DNA from: a virus
Reading direction: 5' to 3' (one strand)
IMG/VR virus record: IMGVR_UViG_3300026512_000061
Span: 1 to 23,412 of that record
Length of the DNA stretch: 23,412 nucleotides
This document shows, piece by piece, positions 2,496 to 23,412 of the stretch. Every line of letters begins with the position of its first letter. The stretch's first letter is position 1. The notes under the pieces were generated by a model. The model saw only the letters and a program-made list of their open reading frames with translations. It had not been told where the DNA came from and did not search any database. A program made the position numbers and the translations under genes.

Positions 2496-2518
2496 AAAAA
2501 CTCCTTTATTTTTATTAA

Positions 2519-2547
2519 ATTATATTATATTTTTAGCTATAAGTAAA
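2519..2547 (-). promoter_or_regulatory. Promoter, TTTACT-N17-TATAAT, for the 222-aa gene and nrdA
   Basis: On the minus strand TTTACT (2542-2547) is followed after exactly 17 bases by TATAAT (2519-2524). It is one of nine matching sites in the window. The predicted start site is about 15-20 bases upstream of the ATG at 2495. Its spacer starts TATAGC, the only member without the extended TTTACTTTT or TTTACCTTT left half. Confidence 0.8.
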
Positions 2548-2573
2548 GCTAATTTACTTCCATCCTAAATATT

Positions 2574-2638: not shown

Positions 2639-5137
2639 TTAAATTATTAATTTTTCAATTACTTTCAAGTAATCATCAGAAATATAATAGCTATTGTATT
2701 TATATTTATATCCAAGCTCTTTTAAGAACATTTTTATCTCTTTATTCAATTCTTTTGGAACAAATCTCTGTTTCAATGAAATTTTATCTTTATAATACAA
2801 CATTTTCTTTAAAAGTTTTATTTTTTCTAAGTTTATTCCATTTTTCTCTAAAATACTAAAATAATTTGACAAATCTTCTTTTTTCATCAAAAATAGTTTA
2901 TGATTCAATATTTTGTCAAAATTTTTTTCATTTTTCAAAATTATCTTCAATAATTGTATTTTTTCATCTTCTGAATCAAAGTTTATGAATTTTTCATAAT
3001 AATTTACCTTTTGTTCTTCATTATAAGATAAATCATTATTTTTTAGACGATTTAGCAATAATTCTACTTTTTGTCGCTCTTTTTCTTTAATTTGTTGTTT
3101 AATTGCTTTCAAATTCAAAGTTGTTCGTTCTTCTACAATTTTTATCTTATTTTTATCAAATTGATGTTCAAGAAGCTTTAAAAAACTTTTTTTGTGATCA
3201 ACTTCTAATAAATTTAAAAAAGTTTCTATACTAAACATAAACTCACCAAAATCATTTATGACTTTATTTCCATAATTATCAAATAAAAAATAAATTGATT
3301 CATCTAAAAAATACAAATATTCATTTTTCAAAATTTCTTTATCTATAATTTTAAATTTTTTTATTTCTTTTATATAGAAATTTATTTTTTCAGCAAATCT
3401 ATTTCTTTTTAATTGCTGTAATGATGAAATAACATCTATTGTTTGACTTTCATCTATATGATAATGAATTTTTACATTTGGACAATTAATTGATATACCA
3501 ACAGTGATAGTCGGAGTAAATATTAATGCATCCCATTTAGCTTCATCAGAAAATGTTTCAATTATTCTATTTTTTTCTTCTTCAGATGTATCTCCATTTA
3601 AAAATACAACTTTCTTTCCATTTTGTTTTAATAATTCACTTATAATGTATCCTGTGCTTTTATTTGACACAGATACTGTTATTTTTTCTTTTTCTCCAAG
3701 TATTTTAGAAATAATAGTATTTTTATCAGTAAATTGAATAAGTTCTGTATTATCTTTATATTCATTGAATAAATATTTTATTTTTCTTCTTTTAAAGAAG
3801 TTTGGCTCTATTTCTAAGAATGCATCAAGCAAAATGAGCTTAAAATTTTTATTTGTGAGTATTTTATACAATTTCATCTTATTTAGTGTTGATTTTTCAG
3901 TTAAATTGGATAAAAGATGTATTAATAATGAAATATATTCATCAATTATCACAATATCAAATTTTTTCACATCATATCTCCATAAACTATCAAATTGTGT
4001 GACTAAATGGCCATTATCTTGATAATTATCATAATAAATATGAATATTGTATTTTTTTGATATATCTTCAGCTAAACTTCTACGATTTGTTATAAATAAG
4101 CATCTTTTTCCGTTTTTTGTATAAAAATCAAGATATTTTGCAATTAAATTTGATTTACCTGTCCCCATTGGTGATTTTATCTTTAAAATATCAAAATCTT
4201 CTATCATTTCTGAAGAAATGTATCTTTCATTGATAAAAATTGTATTTTTTCTTTTTAATTTTGATTTTATGGTATTAATTGAAAGTTTTTTCAATTTTTC
4301 ATCAAGTTTTTCTTCATTTTTCTCATTTATGAAATCTTTTACAACATTTAACTTAGAAATGTCTTTATAAAAATTTATTGATTTGGATGGATTGAAATGA
4401 TGCAATATAAAAGGATTATTTTTAAAAAGAAAATAACCTCTTGGTGTTTTTTCATTTGGATGTCTAAATACAAGTAAATCTCCTTTATCTTCAACAACAG
4501 AAAACCCAAGTCCATTCAAATATTTTATGCTTTCAAAAAGAATATCTTCATAATTTTCATTTTTAATTTCTTTCTTTTTTATCTTTGGAAGTTTTTTAAT
4601 TTCGCCTTCATTAAAAATAACAAAATCATTTTTTAATGTTGGTGCCTGATATGTGGCTTCTCTAGTTACAGAAAGATCTATTTTTCCAAGCCCTTTTATC
4701 AAAAAATTTATATTCAAAAGAAACTGTTTAATTGATTCTTCGTTATTAGCTCCTTCAACTAAAACAGCTCCTTTTAAATTATATTTTCCATTTCCATAGC
4801 TTCTACTAGGCAATATAAAAAAATAATATTTTTCTTTTTTAAGAATTTCTATTATTTGTTCTGAATCTTCTTTTGAAAAAATATCATCTATATCTAAGAC
4901 AATATATTGTATTGATTTACATAGATAATCTTTCAATTCTCTTTTTAGACGTCTTTTAATTATAGGCTCTTTTATATTATAACGACGATTTAAATGAAAG
5001 TGATTAATAAAATAGTATGGAAGTTCTTCAAAAGAAGTTTTGATAGTTTTGAATTCGAATGTATCATTATTGTAAGGTGATATTGGGAATTTTGAAGTGC
5101 TTTGAGAGTTGAAAATTGTAATTTTTATATTTTTCAT
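2639..5137 (-). CDS. Primase-helicase: AEP-like N-terminal domain plus SF2 (UL9/origin-binding-protein type) helicase
   Basis: Large 832-residue replication protein. The N-terminal part (about 75-175) looks like an archaeo-eukaryotic primase (PrimPol) fold: hydrophobic strand plus LDIDD (D82, D84), then PSRSYG (111-115) in the place of the sxH motif, and GKIDLSVTRE with D154 as a third acidic residue. The middle holds a superfamily 2 ATPase: Walker A SPMGTGKS (322-329), motif Ia TNRRSLAED, Walker B as DEYI (399-402), a VVFLNGDTSEEE strand, TPTITVGIS and a motif VI-like QQLKRNR. This order resembles the herpes UL9-type origin-binding helicase family. The C-terminal 200 residues are lysine-rich helices without a recognised motif. 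It is alone behind the promoter at 5269 and the structured leader at 5160. The helicase call is firm; the primase call is inference. Confidence 0.75.
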   Translation of the reverse strand: MKNIKITIFNSQSTSKFPISPYNNDTFEFKTIKTSFEELPYYFINHFHLNRRYNIKEPIIKRRLKRELKDYLCKSIQYIVLDIDDIFSKEDSEQIIEILKKEKYYFFILPSRSYGNGKYNLKGAVLVEGANNEESIKQFLLNINFLIKGLGKIDLSVTREATYQAPTLKNDFVIFNEGEIKKLPKIKKKEIKNENYEDILFESIKYLNGLGFSVVEDKGDLLVFRHPNEKTPRGYFLFKNNPFILHHFNPSKSINFYKDISKLNVVKDFINEKNEEKLDEKLKKLSINTIKSKLKRKNTIFINERYISSEMIEDFDILKIKSPMGTGKSNLIAKYLDFYTKNGKRCLFITNRRSLAEDISKKYNIHIYYDNYQDNGHLVTQFDSLWRYDVKKFDIVIIDEYISLLIHLLSNLTEKSTLNKMKLYKILTNKNFKLILLDAFLEIEPNFFKRRKIKYLFNEYKDNTELIQFTDKNTIISKILGEKEKITVSVSNKSTGYIISELLKQNGKKVVFLNGDTSEEEKNRIIETFSDEAKWDALIFTPTITVGISINCPNVKIHYHIDESQTIDVISSLQQLKRNRFAEKINFYIKEIKKFKIIDKEILKNEYLYFLDESIYFLFDNYGNKVINDFGEFMFSIETFLNLLEVDHKKSFLKLLEHQFDKNKIKIVEERTTLNLKAIKQQIKEKERQKVELLLNRLKNNDLSYNEEQKVNYYEKFINFDSEDEKIQLLKIILKNEKNFDKILNHKLFLMKKEDLSNYFSILEKNGINLEKIKLLKKMLYYKDKISLKQRFVPKELNKEIKMFLKELGYKYKYNSYYISDDYLKVIEKLII

Positions 5138-5159
5138 TTTTTCACCTTAAATCCTTTGT

Positions 5160-5261
5160 AATTCACTTATCCGAGCCTCTCTAAGAGCGTTATATCATAT
5201 TGATGGTAAAGTTATATTAAAGTTTAAATATTTTTAACTGAGAGGCTCTAATAAATAAATT
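5160..5261 (-). promoter_or_regulatory. Structured 5' leader with long conserved stem (copy 1)
   Basis: Minus-strand RNA from the promoter at 5269 would begin almost directly with AUUUAUUUAUUAGAGCCUCUC. This pairs with GAGAGGCUCGGAUAAGUGAAUU near the start codon. The stem has 9 inner pairs, one A-G mismatch, then about 13 outer pairs including three G-U pairs. The enclosed 58 nt can form smaller hairpins. G-U pairs occur only in the minus-strand transcript, which suggests an RNA element. The stem ends next to the AAAGGA ribosome binding site of the primase-helicase gene. A second copy with a different loop is at 13977. Confidence 0.7.
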
Positions 5262-5268
5262 ATTTTTT

Positions 5269-5297
5269 ATTATAATATATTTTTTCACAAAAGTAAA
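5269..5297 (-). promoter_or_regulatory. Promoter, TTTACT-N17-TATAAT, for the primase-helicase gene
   Basis: TTTACTTTT begins at 5297 on the minus strand and TATAAT is at 5269-5274, with 17 bases between. It lies between the GGDEF gene stop and the structured leader, giving a 5' untranslated region of about 125 bases. Confidence 0.85.
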
Positions 5298-5310
5298 GGA
5301 TTTAATAACT

Positions 5311-5778
5311 TTATCTGCATTTACAAATAAAACCCATAATTTTTTTAAAAAATGATTTTTGACTTTTTTTCTTTTTTATAAGTTTTTTATCCAAAATTTC
5401 CATTAATTCTCTAAAAGCAATTAACTTTGGATTCCATCTTTCTTCAGAGTATGTGATATTTTTAATTTTCGATAAATCCACCTTATCATAAGGATAAAAA
5501 AATAGAAGAAACTCATCCCCGCCTATTCTAAAAAATTGAGCTGATGTATTGTTTATGACTTTCTTTATTGAATTTACTACATCGAGTAAAAAATTATCAC
5601 CAAAATGGTATCCATGATTTCTATTTATATTGTGTAAATCATTTATATCAATTAATACAACATTATAAATTTTATCTTTATTTATTTCTTCTAAATAATC
5701 ATCAAGCTTAAATCTATTTCCTATTTTTGTTAAATTATCTGTTTTTAATCTCATTATTTCTTTTTCACAAATTTTCAT
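5311..5778 (-). CDS. GGDEF-domain protein (diguanylate-cyclase-like)
   Basis: A 155-residue protein with the hallmarks of a GGDEF domain: DNLTKIGNR (14-22), matching the usual D-x-LT-x-L-x-NR entry motif; VVLIDIND (40-47) with metal ligand D44; HGYHFGD (55-61), matching GH-x-x-GD; and an intact RIGGDEFLLFF (84-94). Active enzymes make cyclic di-GMP from two GTP in the cytoplasm. The part after the signature is shorter than usual and ends in a basic tail; the normal SVGIA and AD-x-ALY-x-AK segments are hardly recognisable, so activity is uncertain. No sensor domain or inhibitory RxxD site is evident. The gene follows the nuclease gene after 24 bases with an AGGGA ribosome binding site. It could be a cyclase, a nucleotide-binding decoy or a signalling interference protein. 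Confidence 0.85.
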   Translation of the reverse strand: MKICEKEIMRLKTDNLTKIGNRFKLDDYLEEINKDKIYNVVLIDINDLHNINRNHGYHFGDNFLLDVVNSIKKVINNTSAQFFRIGGDEFLLFFYPYDKVDLSKIKNITYSEERWNPKLIAFRELMEILDKKLIKKKKSQKSFFKKIMGFICKCR

Positions 5779-5802
5779 TTTTGTCCCTATTAAGGTAATT
5801 TA

Positions 5803-6573
5803 CTAAATATTTAATTTAAAATTACCAAAATCATGTTCTCCATCACAGTGTCCGAATTTTTTAAAAGGACACCAGTCACAGAGAGCTGTAATATTTTTTG
5901 GAAATTGAGAAGCCTTTTCAATAGGTTTAATATAATCTATCATATTTTTTATTAATTCATTAAGTTGTTCTCTATAATATGTTCTTGAAACAAATTTATT
6001 GTGCTCAATAAAATAAAAATATGTTTCAACTTTTTCTATTTGAGAAAACCTTAAAAAAGCCCAAATGCTATAAATCATAACTTGCATTTCATTTTGATCT
6101 TCTTTATATTTTCCTGATTTCCAGTCTACAATAATAGCTGTTTTTTGATTAACATCATCTTTAATGGCTAAAAAATCTATAAATCCTCTTACTAAAACAT
6201 TTTTTCCATTTTTATAATTTTCAGGTATTAATTTATTTTTTCCTTGCCTTGAAGGATCAAGAATTAGAGAAAATCCTTGCTCTATATATTTTTCTTTTAA
6301 AGATTTAAAAAAATTATAATGAGGTGAAACAATAAAATTGTTAAAAATTTGTCTATATTTATTTTTATCTTCATCTTTAGATAATTTAAAAACAAAATTT
6401 CCTTTTTCATTTTTTAAGTCACATTCTATTAAATGATGAAGATATTTACCTTTTTCTAAAGCAATGTTTGTTTCAAAGGGTATTTTTATTTTATCAATAT
6501 ACTGTAATTTGAATTTTCTTGGACATTGATGAAAAGATCCCATTTTTGAAAAGCTATATGGTGTAAATTTCAA
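5803..6573 (-). CDS. PD-(D/E)XK nuclease, Cas4/RecB-like with Fe-S cysteines
   Basis: This 256-residue protein matches the RecB/Cas4-type exonuclease fold (PDDEXK_1). It has an N-terminal SFSKMGSFHQCPRKF with C17, a GKYLHHLIE helix with conserved H, then VRGFIDFLA (D133), IVDWKSGKY (D150-x-K152) and the downstream Q164 of the QxxxY-like motif. The C-terminus carries CDWCPFKKFGHC (C232, C235, C243). Together with C17 these are the four cysteines that hold a 4Fe-4S cluster in Cas4 and AddB. Such enzymes degrade or resect DNA ends. It is followed by the GGDEF gene. There is no CRISPR array or cas1/cas2 nearby, so a recombination or DNA-processing role is more likely than adaptation. Confidence 0.88.
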   Translation of the reverse strand: MKFTPYSFSKMGSFHQCPRKFKLQYIDKIKIPFETNIALEKGKYLHHLIECDLKNEKGNFVFKLSKDEDKNKYRQIFNNFIVSPHYNFFKSLKEKYIEQGFSLILDPSRQGKNKLIPENYKNGKNVLVRGFIDFLAIKDDVNQKTAIIVDWKSGKYKEDQNEMQVMIYSIWAFLRFSQIEKVETYFYFIEHNKFVSRTYYREQLNELIKNMIDYIKPIEKASQFPKNITALCDWCPFKKFGHCDGEHDFGNFKLNI

Positions 6574-6605
6574 TTTTTCTCCTTGATTTTTATTTTGAAA
6601 TAAAA

Positions 6606-6758
6606 TTAAACTTTAAAATATGATTTTCCTAAATAATACTGTCTTATTATAAATCTAATATTTTCTGTTTTTAAGTCAAATTTTTCTGCAACTTTTTTAA
6701 TATTTTTGACTTTAAAGAAATATTCAATAACTTTCAAATTAAAATCATTCATATTCAT
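6606..6758 (-). CDS. Small helix-turn-helix protein, 50 aa
   Basis: A 50-codon frame beginning ATGAATATGAATGAT, preceded by AAAGGA, fills the gap between the Cas4-like nuclease and GapR-like genes. The product has a helix followed by NIKKVAEKFDLKTENIRFII (residues 19-38). This has the spacing of a helix-turn-helix in which KKVAEKF is helix 2 and TENIRFII the recognition helix. It may be a small transcription regulator or sigma-like fragment. Family identity is not known. Confidence 0.6.
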   Translation of the reverse strand: MNMNDFNLKVIEYFFKVKNIKKVAEKFDLKTENIRFIIRQYYLGKSYFKV

Positions 6759-6794
6759 TTCATTCCTTTATTTTAAAATAAAAATCAAAGAGGA

Positions 6795-7082
6795 TTAAAG
6801 AAGAGAAGCTATTGAATTTAAAATATCCTCATCTCTTTTTATAATATCCTCTATTGTATCAACTAAATCTTTTTCTTGAGAATACTGCTCTTTTAATTCT
6901 TTTTTAATTTCTCTTATAGCTTTGTTAATTTCTTTTACAAGAATACCATTATCTTTAGCTTCTTGTTTAATGACTTTCATATCTTCTTTGATACCTTTTA
7001 TTTCCATTTCTAAAGCAATTAATTGTTTTACATATTTTTTAATTTGTTCTTCATTATTTTGAATTTCTGTAATCATACACAT
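6795..7082 (-). CDS. GapR-like (DUF2312-type) coiled-coil protein
   Basis: A 95-residue, almost wholly helical protein. The stretch from EEQIKKYVKQLIALE through EDMKVIKQEAKDNGILVK to AIREIKKE follows the GapR pattern: one long helix, an acidic-basic second helix ending in EAK-x-NG, then a third basic helix. GapR proteins form dimers or tetramers that encircle overtwisted DNA and help topoisomerases ahead of replication forks. In the phage it could assist replication or reshape host DNA. Start ATG at 7082 overlaps no gene and has GGAG six bases upstream, inside the end of the previous gene; a second ATG at 7076 is possible. The family call rests on pattern memory, not a search. Confidence 0.55.
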   Translation of the reverse strand: MCMITEIQNNEEQIKKYVKQLIALEMEIKGIKEDMKVIKQEAKDNGILVKEINKAIREIKKELKEQYSQEKDLVDTIEDIIKRDEDILNSIASLL

Positions 7083-7542: not shown

Positions 7543-7587
7543 AATTTCTCCTTTTCATTTTATTTAATTTTTTAAATCATAATTATA

Positions 7588-7616
7588 ATTATAAAATAAT
7601 TTTTAAGAAAAGTAAA
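7588..7616 (-). promoter_or_regulatory. Promoter, TTTACT-N17-TATAAT, for the 152-aa/GapR-like operon
   Basis: TTTACTTTT starts at 7616 on the minus strand, TATAAT is at 7588-7593, spacer 17. It sits between the primase stop codon (7620) and the next start (7542). Confidence 0.85.
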
Positions 7617-7619
7617 GGG

Positions 7620-11762: not shown

Positions 11763-11790
11763 TTTAACTCCTTAATTTTTTTATAATATA

Positions 11791-11819
11791 ATTATATAAT
11801 AATTTTTGAAAAAAGTAAA
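11791..11819 (-). promoter_or_regulatory. Promoter, TTTACT-N17-TATAAT, for the replication operon
   Basis: TTTACTTTT begins at 11819 on the minus strand and TATAAT is at 11791-11796, spacer 17. It would transcribe the 84-aa gene, gp45, gp32, RNase H and gp61 genes. Confidence 0.85.
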
Positions 11820-12080
11820 TCAAAAATAAAATTTTATTTCCAAAAAATTATAACCCTTTCCCATAAATGTTTCATCAACATAGATATCATCAATTTTTTT
11901 ACCAAATTTTTGAAAAACATCTTTGACAATTTCTTTTATTGCTTTTCTATCATAATCACTTAAAGGTGCAAATACAACAAAGGTTATTTCTTGTTCACCC
12001 AAATCTAATATTAAATTTTTAATATTGTATACATCACCCAATGTAATTGCTAGCACTTTTTCTAATTTTTTCTCATTCAT
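11820..12080 (-). CDS. Hypothetical protein, 86 aa
   Basis: Not recognised. The pattern of helix-strand-helix-strand (LEKVLAITLGDVYNI, EQEITFVVFAPLSDYD, RKAIKEIVKDVFQKFGKK, YNFLEIKFYF) suggests a small alpha/beta fold with two to three strands. AAGGAGTTAAA precedes the ATG. Its stop abuts the promoter for the next operon, so it is the last gene of the nucleotidyltransferase operon. Confidence 0.7.
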   Translation of the reverse strand: MNEKKLEKVLAITLGDVYNIKNLILDLGEQEITFVVFAPLSDYDRKAIKEIVKDVFQKFGKKIDDIYVDETFMGKGYNFLEIKFYF

Positions 12081-12923: not shown

Positions 12924-12950
12924 TTTAACTCCTCAACTTTTCTTATAGTA

Positions 12951-12979
12951 ATTATAATATAATTTTTAAGAAAGGTAAA
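12951..12979 (-). promoter_or_regulatory. Promoter, TTTACC-N17-TATAAT, for the nucleotidyltransferase gene
   Basis: TTTACCTTT begins at 12979 on the minus strand and TATAAT is at 12951-12956, spacer 17. It is the only one of the nine sites with TTTACC rather than TTTACT. Confidence 0.85.
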
Positions 12980-12982
12980 TAG

Positions 12983-13963
12983 TTAAAAAGAAAAATTACA
13001 AACATTTTTCTTAACTATTTTCATTAATAATTTTTCAATTTCATTCCAATTAGCTGTTTTAGGAAGTTTTTCTCTATCGTGTGCAACAAATCTTTCAAAT
13101 CTTTTTTCAGCTTCTTTTTGAAGTTCTTCTAAACTAAATTTTCCTTTTCTTACATCTAGCAAAAATTCTTTTTCTCTTACAGGAAATTCTAATTTCCCTT
13201 TTGAGATTAAATCTTCTCCTTCATTAAGAAGCCTAAATAAATGCATAAAAAATTTAGTATCATAACCATGCTTCTCCCATATTTTAGCTCTATGTGATGT
13301 CATCTGTAATTTTTCTTCAACCATTTTTTCTACTTTTTTAACAAAATAATTTAAAGGGAATGTTAAATTTTTTAGATAAATATTTTTATCATCAACTTTG
13401 TAACCATGTTTTTCTAAATCTACTCTAAATTCAGCAAGCGTTCTATCTGAATTAAATGTTAAAAGTGTGTTTTTAAATCCTTTAAGTTCAGATAAATTTT
13501 CAGCTTTTGAGATACCCTTTTTCATTTGCTGTCTTGCGTATCCTTGAAAGCTATCAAACACCCTTCTATTTATAAACAAATGGTAATTATTTTGAATTTC
13601 TTCAAATTCTGGTGTATTAAAAACAACAACATCTTTACCTTTAGCAAAAAGAAGCTCTACAATATTAGGATTTACATCACCAGCTAATTTTAAAAATTGC
13701 CTTAATTCATATACTTTAATATCAACTGCATCTTTAGTATTTTTTCCAGATTCATCTTTATCTTTTATGGAACAATCAATTTCTTTCACATTTTTAATCC
13801 CAATGTAATATTCAGGATTACCTAAAAATACCCCAACAAAATCTTCATCTGATTCAGGAGTATTTGTCCCATAGAGATGAGAACCTGTTTTTGTTAAAAA
13901 TAATAATTTTCCAAATTCTTGCAATTTTTCGTTTACTCTTTTTAATAATTCTTCTTTTACCAT
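12983..13963 (-). CDS. RlaP-type nucleotidyltransferase (polymerase beta superfamily)
   Basis: The 326-residue protein starts its core with TKTGSHLYGTNTPESDEDFV (residues 25-43; GS at 27-28, metal ligands D39 and D41). This is the signature of the RlaP/YcgL family (PF10127), whose name comes from its frequent link with RNA ligases in RNA-repair operons. The rest contains DIKVYELRQFLKLAGDVNPNIVELL, also typical of this family, then helical segments and a basic C-terminus. Biochemical function in the family is poorly known. The gene stands alone behind the promoter at 14090 and a structured leader, between the 2H phosphodiesterase and CCA-like genes, with Rnl2 nearby. AAAGGAG precedes the ATG. 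Confidence 0.82.
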   Translation of the reverse strand: MVKEELLKRVNEKLQEFGKLLFLTKTGSHLYGTNTPESDEDFVGVFLGNPEYYIGIKNVKEIDCSIKDKDESGKNTKDAVDIKVYELRQFLKLAGDVNPNIVELLFAKGKDVVVFNTPEFEEIQNNYHLFINRRVFDSFQGYARQQMKKGISKAENLSELKGFKNTLLTFNSDRTLAEFRVDLEKHGYKVDDKNIYLKNLTFPLNYFVKKVEKMVEEKLQMTSHRAKIWEKHGYDTKFFMHLFRLLNEGEDLISKGKLEFPVREKEFLLDVRKGKFSLEELQKEAEKRFERFVAHDREKLPKTANWNEIEKLLMKIVKKNVCNFSF

Positions 13964-13976
13964 TCTAACTCCTTTT

Positions 13977-14078
13977 AATTCACTTATCTGAGCCTCTCTA
14001 AGGAATAATCTTTTATTTTTAATATATAATTATTAAAATCACTTAAAAGCTCTTAGAGAGGCTCTAATAAATAAACTA
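13977..14078 (-). promoter_or_regulatory. Structured 5' leader with long conserved stem (copy 2)
   Basis: Minus-strand RNA pairs UUUAUUUAUU-A-GAGCCUCUCUAAG with CUUAGAGAGGCUC-A-GAUAAGUGAAUU. That is 13 inner pairs, one A-A mismatch at the same position as in copy 1, then about 13 outer pairs with G-U pairs, one of them (G-U for A-U) a structure-preserving difference from copy 1. The 57-nt unit between the nine-base arms differs from copy 1 in sequence but has nearly the same length, and holds an 8-bp hairpin (TTTTAATA/TATTAAAA). AAGGAG of the RlaP gene follows at once. Confidence 0.7.
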
Positions 14079-14089
14079 TTTATAGTATA

Positions 14090-14118
14090 ATTATAATATA
14101 ATTTTTTGCAAAAGTAAA
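14090..14118 (-). promoter_or_regulatory. Promoter, TTTACT-N17-TATAAT, for the RlaP-like gene
   Basis: TTTACTTTT begins at 14118 on the minus strand, TATAAT is at 14090-14095, spacer 17. The predicted start is only about 5-10 bases before the 5' arm of the leader stem. Its upstream half is part of a 32-base repeat shared with the promoter at 19796. Confidence 0.85.
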
Positions 14119-14141
14119 TAGTTTAAGGAAAATTTAAGAAT
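14110..14141 (-). repeat. 32-base direct repeat, copy 1 (promoter upstream half)
   Basis: Identical over 32 bases to 19816-19847. It covers the TTTACTTTT box and 23 bases upstream and, in this copy, also the last codons and stop of the 2H phosphodiesterase gene. Confidence 0.85.
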
Positions 14142-16845: not shown

Positions 16846-16869
16846 TTTGACTCCTTTTTCTTTTATATA

Positions 16870-16898
16870 ATTATAATATATTTTCAGTCAAAAGTAAA
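16870..16898 (-). promoter_or_regulatory. Promoter, TTTACT-N17-TATAAT, for the RNA ligase operon
   Basis: TTTACTTTT begins at 16898 on the minus strand and TATAAT is at 16870-16875, spacer 17. The flanking 16899-17001 is very AT-rich with a TATATA run and no gene. Confidence 0.85.
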
Positions 16899-17001
16899 TA
16901 ATTTATATCTTTATACACATTTTATATATTATATATATATTTTACTGAAAAAATTCTATTTTCATCTCCAAAAAAGATTACAAGTATAAATATTATTAAA
17001 A

Positions 17002-19766: not shown

Positions 19767-19795
19767 TTTAACTCCTTTGTTGTTTTTATAAACTA

Positions 19796-19824
19796 ATTAT
19801 ATAATAAATTTCAAGAAAAGTAAA
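19796..19824 (-). promoter_or_regulatory. Promoter, TTTACT-N17-TATAAT, for the accessory operon
   Basis: TTTACTTTT begins at 19824 on the minus strand and TATAAT is at 19796-19801, spacer 17. It would serve the genes from 19766 down to about 17002. Confidence 0.85.
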
Positions 19825-19847
19825 TAGTTTAAGGAAAATTTAAGAAT
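19816..19847 (-). repeat. 32-base direct repeat, copy 2 (promoter upstream half)
   Basis: Identical to 14110-14141. Here it is wholly intergenic, between the promoter box and the stop of the 120-aa gene. Confidence 0.85.
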
Positions 19848-21043: not shown

Positions 21044-22633
21044 TTAATCTCCTATTTGTAATTCTTTTTCTATGATAGGATAAGCATTTTCTAAATAAAG
21101 ATTTATTCTCTCATCAGCGTGTTTTAATATATAATTTTTCTTTCTTCTACAACTTGTAAAATCATCTACATAATCAAAAATTTTAACTTTATCCTTTGAA
21201 TCATGCTGTCGCATACCCCTACCAATACTCTGATTAAGAGTAATAAAAGACTTAATGCTTGAAGCTAAATGAATGTTGTGTATTTTCTTAATATTAACAC
21301 CAGTGGATAACGTTCCGTATGTTGCTATTAATATTCCTCCATCTTTTAATTCAAACATTTTTCTAATCTCTTCTCTTTTATCTCCCTTAACATCGCCTCT
21401 AATAAAAAATATGTTCAAATCATCTAACATAATTATTTTATCATATTTTATATTATTTTTTATAAGATCTTTTGACTGGACAATATAGTATTTTGAATTG
21501 TCTTTAATAGACTTAATTTCTTTTTTATAAACTAAATCTTCATTAGGAATATCTAAATTTAATTTTAATTTAATTATTTCTTTTAATAATGTTTCACCAT
21601 GTGCTATTTTATTATAAAGAATTAGGTTATTTTCTTTTTTATTTGAAAGCTTATTTACTATTTTGGATATAAAAATATTTCTAACATTTAATTCTTCAAT
21701 ATATTTTACTTCTTGTTGGTAAGTTTTACTAACTTGCCAAAACTCTTTACAAATTTCTTTGCTATAATTCAAGAAAAACATCACAATTTCTACAGGTGTG
21801 GCGTATCCTTGATTAATAAGTTCTTGTGGTGTTATGATTGTAATCGGCTTACCTAATGTTGAAAGAAGTGTAAATTTGTCTATGGTATTTTGAGGAAGTG
21901 TCCCTGTTAAACCTATTTTGTATTCAGCATTTACGGATGCTTTTATTATTTTATCCAATACTTCAGCTTTCGCAGAATGTGCTTCATCAATTATAATAAA
22001 ATCAGTTTCTGGAAATAAATGGATGGCATTTTTCATACTCTGCCAGGTAGAGATTGTAACCAATTTATTAAAATGTTTTTCTTTTCCTGAATAAATTTTA
22101 TGAACATATTTATCTAAATCTTTCCACCCATATTCATTAAAATCACTATACATCTGTTCCACAAGATTTACTGTTGGAACAATTAAAACACCCTTTAAAT
22201 TTTTTGATATGAAATATCTAATGATTGCATATAAAACAAAACTTTTACCTGAATTATGATGAACTATATCATTTTGGACATAACATTCTTCTTCAATATC
22301 AACATTAAAATCAATCCATTCCTGTTTTTTTACATTTTCAATCGAAACAATTTTTTTAGTATTAGATAAATCACCTTTTAATATCTCATTCCCCATCTTC
22401 AAGTTTGAAGAAGACTCCCAAATTAATTTATTTTCATCTTTTTTTAACAAAAAATGTGTAATAGAACATTTTATTGATGAACCATCATCAAATATAATTT
22501 TTTTACCATCCAAGTCTTTTTTAATAAAATAATCATTTATTTTTCTAAAACCAAAGGGTGTTTCAATTTTTATCTTTTTTCCTTGTTTTAATAATTCAAA
22601 TATTTCGCCAAAAGTTTTTTCTTCTATTTTCAT
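21044..22633 (-). CDS. uvsW: C-terminal half of UvsW-type helicase fused to a split-intein C-part
   Basis: UvsW is the T4 SF2 helicase that unwinds branched DNA and R-loops. The 529-residue product starts with a 127-residue intein C-part, then an extein from S128 beginning inside Walker A (SGKS, 128-131). Next come VLIVPTVNLVEQM (motif Ia), VTISTWQSM, DEAH (216-219), GLTGT (motif III, 241-245), ATYGTLSTGVNI, ASSIKSFITLNQSIGRGMR (motif VI, 468-475) and a C-terminal LKHADERINLYLE matching the T4 LKHGIDRIQRYAD. The N-terminal domain and first half of Walker A are missing and should be encoded beyond 23412 with the intein N-part. About 50 residues (359-407) are inserted relative to T4. ATG at 22633 has AGGAGT upstream and a promoter at 22663, supporting a separate transcription unit. 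Confidence 0.9.
   Translation of the reverse strand: MKIEEKTFGEIFELLKQGKKIKIETPFGFRKINDYFIKKDLDGKKIIFDDGSSIKCSITHFLLKKDENKLIWESSSNLKMGNEILKGDLSNTKKIVSIENVKKQEWIDFNVDIEEECYVQNDIVHHNSGKSFVLYAIIRYFISKNLKGVLIVPTVNLVEQMYSDFNEYGWKDLDKYVHKIYSGKEKHFNKLVTISTWQSMKNAIHLFPETDFIIIDEAHSAKAEVLDKIIKASVNAEYKIGLTGTLPQNTIDKFTLLSTLGKPITIITPQELINQGYATPVEIVMFFLNYSKEICKEFWQVSKTYQQEVKYIEELNVRNIFISKIVNKLSNKKENNLILYNKIAHGETLLKEIIKLKLNLDIPNEDLVYKKEIKSIKDNSKYYIVQSKDLIKNNIKYDKIIMLDDLNIFFIRGDVKGDKREEIRKMFELKDGGILIATYGTLSTGVNIKKIHNIHLASSIKSFITLNQSIGRGMRQHDSKDKVKIFDYVDDFTSCRRKKNYILKHADERINLYLENAYPIIEKELQIGD
22253..22633 (-). other. Split intein C-terminal part (atypical split), residues 1-127 of the uvsW fragment
   Basis: The segment has Hint-domain features. 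IETPFGFRKIND and KIIFDDGSSIKCSITH are core strands ending in the block B histidine (H60). The end is ECYVQNDIVHHN followed by S128, matching intein block G (penultimate His126, terminal Asn127, +1 Ser). A C-part of about 127 residues leaves only a short N-part of perhaps 20-30 residues with the first cysteine. Common split inteins have a C-part of 35-50 residues; this arrangement resembles the known AceL-TerL type, whose C-part of about 104 residues also has a (T/S)P-x-GF and IIFDD pattern. It would splice in trans onto Walker A of UvsW. Confidence 0.88.
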
Positions 22634-22662
22634 ATTAACTCCTAAAATTAAATATTTTTATA

Positions 22663-22691
22663 ATTATATAATATTTATAAGGAAAAGTAAA
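22663..22691 (-). promoter_or_regulatory. Promoter, TTTACT-N17-TATAAT, for the split uvsW fragment
   Basis: TTTACTTTT begins at 22691 on the minus strand and TATAAT is at 22663-22668, spacer 17. Its -35 box touches the plus-strand endonuclease start codon at 22691 and its spacer contains that gene's AAGGA ribosome binding site. Confidence 0.85.
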
Positions 22692-23412
22692 TGAAAATTC
22701 GAAAAAGCACTCTAGAAAAATTAAAATTGAAATCAGAAGAATTAAAAATAAATTATAATATCTTAATTAAATTAAGAGAATATTTTGGTTCTTTTAATTT
22801 TTTGACAAAATTAATGAATATAAAGAAATCATATAATAAATATGATAAAAATAAAAAATTTCCAAATTCATTTGAAGAATTAAAAATATTTTTAGAAAAA
22901 ATATATGAATTTAGAAATAATAATGACGCTAAAATAAATTTAGAATACTTTTTACTTATAGGTTTATCAGAAAAAGAATATAAAAAATATTGTTCAGCTA
23001 AAACAAAAAAGATGATAGAAATGCCTACTTTTACAAATACGCTAGAAGAATATAATGAAAAATATGGTGAAGAAGAGGGTAGAAAAAGATATGAGAAAAG
23101 AAGAAAAGATTGCGGAAAATCTGTAAGATTAGAATATTGGCTTGAAAGAGGCTATACTGAAGAAGAGGCTAAACAAAAATTAAAAGAAAGACAAGCCACA
23201 GGCAAACTTGAAAATTTTATGAAAAGATATGGACCAGTTCAAGGATATATAAAATGGTATAAAAGACAAAAAAAGTGGCAAAATACATTAAATTCTAAAT
23301 CACCTGAGGAGATAGAAGAAATCAATAAAAAGAGAAATCCATATTTAAAATATGATTATGAAACAAAAGAAGAATATTTTAATAGAGCAAGAAATTATAT
23401 AATAAATAATAA
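22691..23412 (+). CDS. Homing-endonuclease-like protein, 3' end beyond window
   Basis: The only plus-strand gene. Its 240 visible codons run open to the window end. ATG at 22691 has AAGGA eight bases upstream. The N-terminal 110 residues are lysine-rich helices. Then come two tandem YG-x-x-x-G units: KYGEEEGRKRYEKRR and, after YWLERGYTEEEAKQKL-x-x-RQ, RYGPVQGYIKWYKRQKKWQNTL. This YW-x-x-(K/R)GY-x-EEA / RYG-x-x-xG-x-x-xW pattern is familiar from free-standing phage homing endonucleases, including Vsr/EDxHD-type enzymes found next to split inteins and introns. The catalytic domain should lie downstream of the window, so nuclease identity is inferred. It sits in the break of the split uvsW gene, where it would drive copying of the insertion into intact alleles. 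Confidence 0.72.
   Translation, partial: MKIRKSTLEKLKLKSEELKINYNILIKLREYFGSFNFLTKLMNIKKSYNKYDKNKKFPNSFEELKIFLEKIYEFRNNNDAKINLEYFLLIGLSEKEYKKYCSAKTKKMIEMPTFTNTLEEYNEKYGEEEGRKRYEKRRKDCGKSVRLEYWLERGYTEEEAKQKLKERQATGKLENFMKRYGPVQGYIKWYKRQKKWQNTLNSKSPEEIEEINKKRNPYLKYDYETKEEYFNRARNYIINN

Follow-up and report, generated by a model that had tools for sequence, protein, structure and literature searches.

Uninterrupted and broken uvsW genes

The stretch of DNA analysed here (the window) is the complete virus record IMGVR_UViG_3300026512_000061, 23,412 bp in length. Near its end lie the C-terminal half of the helicase gene uvsW, broken by a split intein, and, on the opposite strand, the start of a putative homing endonuclease gene (Table 1). 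The latter is listed as an open reading frame (ORF) at 22691-23410(+), with 240 codons and cut by the contig end; every other long ORF in the window is read from the minus strand. The uvsW C-half starts at 22633(-), and the distance to the endonuclease start codon, which is predicted from its Shine-Dalgarno site, is 57 bp. Read on the minus strand, this gap is ATTTACTTTTCCTTATAAATATTATATAATTATAAA.

The C-half was treated as one protein (P0002), consisting of a C-intein (IntC) and the UvsW C-extein, which places the intein inside the Walker A motif of UvsW. In addition to the profile matches of Table 1, a single-sequence search with IntC matched VidaL and CatC. In contig IMGVR_3300026382_000009 (locus L006), whose C-half is 86% identical to that of the window, an N-half lies 23 bp upstream of the C-half and ends NCILISATG, followed by CLDKNEKIRVIIED and a stop codon; since the reading frames differ, the two halves are separate proteins. 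A second N-half, ending SATG followed by CLDKNEKIRVIVED and a stop codon, was found by a search with the uvsW N-half at the end of contig IMGVR_3300026512_000010 (64,109 bp; locus L015). The N-intein (IntN) of both is only 14 amino acids (aa) long, and the splice point is common to both ORFs in the L015 N-half/window C-half pair, in L006 and in a third locus, L040. Related phages with an intact uvsW lacking the insertion, from which the earlier note had sought support, do exist: L016 carries a single uninterrupted, intein-free uvsW (SATSSGKS), and the intein site is intact in 74 of 80 further uvsW loci, the other six being contig-edge truncations or longer local matches. Between the window and L006, identity is 85% for the intein and 86% for the helicase. 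The intein, being as similar as the helicase, probably predates the divergence of the two phages, and L006 has kept the split intein with the endonuclease absent.

The remainder of the endonuclease gene is also at L015, where the last 170 codons of an ORF run antisense to the N-half and overlap its end by 17 bp. The start of this contig equals the end of the window over exactly 12 bp, in frame and unique in both contigs, and the joined endonuclease has 407 aa. Relative to the L006 contig (G001) the two pieces are complementary, the window covering 71718-91943 and the L015 contig starting at 91940; the junction adds only the ∼1.24 kb of the endonuclease. Natural full-length proteins from L061, L045, L069 and L072 can be aligned colinearly with the joined sequence through the junction (lowest E = 7e-28). 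Homology of the endonuclease protein is detectable only from about residue 73 onward, with a conserved repeat module at about residues 118-215. Pfam, PHROGs and NCBIfam returned nothing useful for the window's endonuclease fragment, and no viral contig matched P0001 in a direct search.

The same inverted layout, N-half/endonuclease/C-half, is found on a single contig in L040 (IMGVR_3300020045_007762). Thus the fractured-gene layout proposed in the earlier note, with a free-standing endonuclease gene in the uvsW break, is supported by L040 as well as by the window joined to L015. The location also coincides with the break, the halves being adjacent in L006 and flanking an inverted endonuclease in the other two. 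In L026, uvsW is split at the same site and the endonuclease is co-oriented. The L026 C-half itself appears to be broken again at 5700-6869, by what looks like another IntN and then a GIY-YIG-like ORF.

Table 1. Positions of the features at the uvsW break and of the promoter motif
Feature	Locus	Position	Strand	Basis or remarks
UvsW helicase C-extein, begins SGKS (second half of Walker A)	window	21044-22252	-	T4 UvsW 2oca E = 8e-42; PHROG 16 E = 1.5e-69
IntC, 127 aa, ends VHHN, atypically split intein	window	22253-22633	-	profile match gp41-1 intein 8e-15, VidaL 6e-14
Shine-Dalgarno AGGAG of uvsW C-half	window	22639-22643	-	sequence
Phage promoter motif copy, predicted promoter of uvsW C-half	window	22657-22692	-	-35 TTTACT 22691-22686, 17-bp spacer, -10 TATAAT 22668-22663
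Shine-Dalgarno AAGGAA of endonuclease gene	window	22679-22684	+	sequence; within spacer of opposed promoter
Endonuclease gene, codons 1-240 of 407	window	22691-23412	+	ORF; N-terminal recognition module; remainder on contig IMGVR_UViG_3300026512_000010
Endonuclease 3' part	L015	6955-6443	minus strand of that locus	in-frame join to window
IntN, 14 aa (CLDKNEKIRVI[IV]ED)	L006; L015	7933-7977; 6415-6459		
uvsW C-half	L040	2011-3459	-	IntC ends THHN, then SGKS
Endonuclease	L040	3506-4606	+	inverted relative to uvsW halves
uvsW N-half	L040	4587-5096	-	ends SPTA, then CLDTEEEIELYLSEDDYIKFNNPVE and stop; tail-to-tail overlap with endonuclease, 20 bp
Promoter motif copies	window	2513-2548, 5263-5298, 7582-7617, 11785-11820, 12945-12980, 14084-14119, 16864-16899, 19790-19825, 22657-22692	all -	

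A promoter motif over the endonuclease start codon

A generic sigma-70 scan gave 10 matches in 400 bp where 4.2 were expected, and was uninformative because the DNA is AT-rich (89% AT). The window has its own family of intergenic repeats, of the form ATTTACTTTT-N-TATAATTATA, and a promoter matrix was made from six of these with the copy in the gap held out. The gap site scored 28.8 bits by this matrix, rank 7 in the window. The maximum in 15 shuffled windows was 13.4 bits, and a site as good as the gap copy occurred in 0 of 40 shuffles. Since the held-out score lies above all shuffles, the gap holds a copy of what is apparently the phage's own promoter. At a threshold of 14 bits the window has ten sites, of which nine lie upstream of minus-strand genes and are themselves on that strand. 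The distance to the next start codon is 18-24 bp for six of these nine (24 bp for the gap copy) and 40, 121 and 126 bp for the rest. The motif is common on the window and on the adjoining L015 contig, which has 20 further sites, and rarer on the L006 contig.

The gap copy shares DNA with the endonuclease gene. The A of the endonuclease ATG (22691-22693) is also the first base of the opposed -35 box, and the endonuclease ribosome site falls within the promoter spacer, both as described in the earlier note. The note's figure of 58 bases between the start codons needs correcting to 57 bp, but the layout of the overlap stands. In the 23-bp spacer of L006, which is without the endonuclease, the matrix scan gave no site for the motif (best -10.3), which indicates that the promoter accompanies the insertion. 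The same scan did not find the window's motif in the L040 gap.

Other promoter candidates in the gap were discarded. The T4 late promoter sequence TATAAATA at 22672-22679 was rejected, with 12 occurrences in the window against 8.1 expected. A plus-strand promoter for the endonuclease, TTAACT-18-TATAAT (22635-22664), was not accepted because its -10 belongs to TATAATTATA, a palindrome within the minus-strand motif, and its -35 is complementary to the ribosome site of the C-half. Elsewhere in the window, the intergenic stretches 5137-5282 and 13946-14141 are related to each other, and one of them has 91% identity over 192 bp to the adjoining contig (L187 18213-18404).

Recognition module and nuclease domains in the endonuclease family

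When the conserved module was used as the query of a family scan, 80 loci (L021-L100) were recovered, mostly abutting split inteins in P-loop genes. An adjoining ORF starting with IntC was present for 67 of 85 endonuclease rows, and in most family rows one can read a preceding ORF that ends in a short IntN-like sequence. The host genes, broken mostly at P-loops, include what we take from their motifs to be TerL, gp41, PhoH, a Clp-like AAA protein and SMC/Rad50-like proteins. For the 67 rows with an IntC neighbour, the endonuclease is co-oriented in 64, mostly with an overlap of a few bases; the inverted form is thus unusual, with only three rows (the window, L040 and L056) not co-oriented. The window groups with L040 in a tree of the recognition module (99/24), but because the branches are too long a single inversion is not claimed for the two. 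In L056 (1124-4546), which has a TerL split intein, the N-half and the endonuclease share a strand and the C-half lies opposite to them; the endonuclease is itself broken into two ORFs. Caulobacter phage Cr30 (L008, 2575-3597) has a family member between the terminase small and large subunit genes, and no adjacent intein half was detected there.

The nuclease domains of the family are of EDxHD, GIY-YIG or PD-(D/E)XK-like type, and Pfam T5orf172/MUG113 matches other family members. For the window member, a single-sequence PDB search with the C-terminal domain from L015 gave only noise. Homologous domains are present in other family members, however, and a profile of these had T7 endonuclease I as its best match (E = 0.002). 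The structure model has a core with a predicted local distance difference test score (pLDDT) >90 and the order alpha-beta-beta-beta-alpha-beta. Foldseek gave Bax1 as the best match, which was not significant (E = 0.075); many of the top structure matches, individually not significant, are PD-(D/E)XK enzymes (Bax1, PvuRTs1I, AbaSI, influenza PA, T7 EndoI). The core residues E90, D118, E129 and K146 are invariant among members, and E-x-K is absent. The EDxHD motif is also absent, the domain reading KFDFYLPKYDIYIEIAG without the H-D pair. The nuclease fold anticipated in the earlier note is therefore supported for the completed protein, as a putative PD-(D/E)XK-like domain, but none of the cores it had named (Vsr/EDxHD, GIY-YIG or HNH) occurs in the window member. 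Two of them are found in the other uvsW endonucleases: the L040 domain is Vsr-like with an EDxHD motif, its model matching 1cw0 (prob 1.00) and I-Bth0305I 3r3p (prob 1.00, TMt 0.74), and the L026 domain is GIY-YIG-like by motif.

The three uvsW endonucleases combine a common recognition module with three nuclease types, the module of the window being nearest to those of the other two uvsW cases (48% over 121 aa for L026; 38% over 128 aa for L040). Across 63 members, with host-gene classes defined by single linkage and near relatives only partly removed, the best partner was in the same host-gene class for 52/63 by the N-terminal part and for 27/62 by the nuclease part, the random expectation from class sizes being ∼0.24. 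This difference is consistent with a recognition part that follows the site and with exchange of the nuclease cores. On balance we lean towards a modular view of the endonucleases of split-intein genes, in which recognition tracks the host gene and nuclease cores are interchangeable, and in which the loss of the window's endonuclease would be costly as its start codon is DNA of the C-half promoter.

Origin of the arrangement and comparison with known systems

We consider it highly probable that the window carries a selfish endonuclease gene inserted in reverse between the halves of a uvsW already broken at Walker A by an atypically split intein. The arrangement is a fractured gene in an unusual inverted form. 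The endonuclease gene would have entered the short spacer between two existing half genes, and protein trans-splicing would make full UvsW out of two separately translated products, the N-extein with IntN and IntC with the C-extein. The endonuclease is expected to cut insert-free uvsW alleles near the Walker A codons, with repair from this phage copying the insert. Because the insert separates the C-half from the upstream operon, the C-half would be expressed from the phage promoter copy inside the insert. Since this promoter shares sequence with the endonuclease ribosome site and start codon, a precise deletion of the endonuclease gene would tend to take the promoter of the helicase half with it, and retention would be favoured. 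Interference between expression of the endonuclease and of the C-half is plausible from the overlap. The endonuclease may have been gained in the window lineage or lost in that of L006; loss would be the simpler reading, given the inverted position of a related recognition module in L040.

Several observations weigh against this proposal. The plus strand has no recognisable phage-type promoter for the endonuclease (best +22646-22681, 5.7 bits), so the gene may be poorly expressed, and L006 keeps the split intein without an endonuclease, so the endonuclease is dispensable. The E-x-K lysine is not conserved in the window member, the nuclease assignment is weak, combining the T7 endonuclease I profile match with non-significant fold matches, and the window/L015 join was made in silico. 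The missing promoter and catalytic lysine would also suit a decaying passenger, inactive for homing and silent as antisense to the operon, with the split intein and the new promoter maintaining uvsW. We find this possible but doubtful. In its favour, the endonuclease is the sole plus-strand gene among the window's long ORFs, the relative in L056 is broken, and segD, the only antisense homing endonuclease gene (HEG) of T4, is thought to be hardly transcribed (PMC2988022). However, the 407-codon ORF is intact over two contigs with a good Shine-Dalgarno site, its nuclease core residues are conserved with other members, and the inverted layout is intact in the distant L040.

That the endonuclease has instead become a regulator, which when translated across or bound at the common promoter tunes the C-half and the amount of rejoined UvsW, seems improbable to us. 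I-TevI autorepression at its own promoter is a precedent (PMC2988022) and the endonuclease translation start does overlap the C-half promoter, but the binding site is putative, the window's motif is not in the L040 gap and compaction may have produced the overlap incidentally. An assembly chimera, with the plus-strand gene not truly beside uvsW, is very improbable indeed: the window does stop inside the endonuclease gene and the L015 junction rests on 12 bp, but L040 has the same inverted order on one contig, the synteny is exact, the join is in frame and domain-colinear, and the promoter motif is on both contigs.

As a probable selfish gene inserted in reverse, the window's endonuclease belongs to a natural series for the coexistence of selfish endonucleases and split inteins, with uvsW intact, split without an endonuclease, and split with a co-oriented or an inverted one. 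It suggests a testable retention mechanism in which a host gene is made dependent on a promoter within a selfish gene, and the family provides evidence for swapping of recognition and cutting parts in these enzymes. The 14-aa IntN may be the shortest natural N-intein and could be useful for protein labelling.

Neither fractured genes nor atypically split inteins are new in themselves. As far as the open literature shows, the novel points are the inverted form, in which promoter and start codon overlap, the occurrence of three nuclease types at the uvsW site, and the 14-aa IntN. Fractured genes, in which split inteins occur with a free-standing endonuclease, were reportedly described by Dassa et al. 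2009 (Nucleic Acids Res 37:2560); the window resembles these in having an endonuclease gene between two intein-bearing halves of a replication gene of a phage, broken at a conserved P-loop, but differs in the inverted endonuclease, the C-half promoter over its start codon, the very short IntN and the non-EDxHD nuclease domain. With the atypically split inteins VidaL, PolB16 OarG and AceL-TerL it shares a very short IntN, a long IntC with an HN ending and a +1 Ser. Here, however, the site is in uvsW, splicing is predicted, and the IntN is one residue below the published range of 15-37 aa (VidaL, 16 aa), the shortest characterised natural N-intein being the 15 aa of PolB16 OarG (PMC10189870). 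The recognition module is common to members such as L040 that resemble the I-Bth0305I/EDxHD (Vsr-like) endonucleases, whereas the window member has a T7-endonuclease-I/PD-(D/E)XK-like domain without the EDxHD motif. In T4, promoters can be displaced when an HEG invades, and host promoters embedded in HEGs favour retention of these genes (PMC2988022). The free-standing HEGs segD and segG thus offer parallels, in antisense insertion and in host promoters overlapping an HEG (PMC2988022), but in T4 the two features are in separate genes, without an intein, and the promoters of gene 32 are located within segG rather than at an opposed start codon. In the window, antisense insertion and promoter overlap coincide at one start codon.
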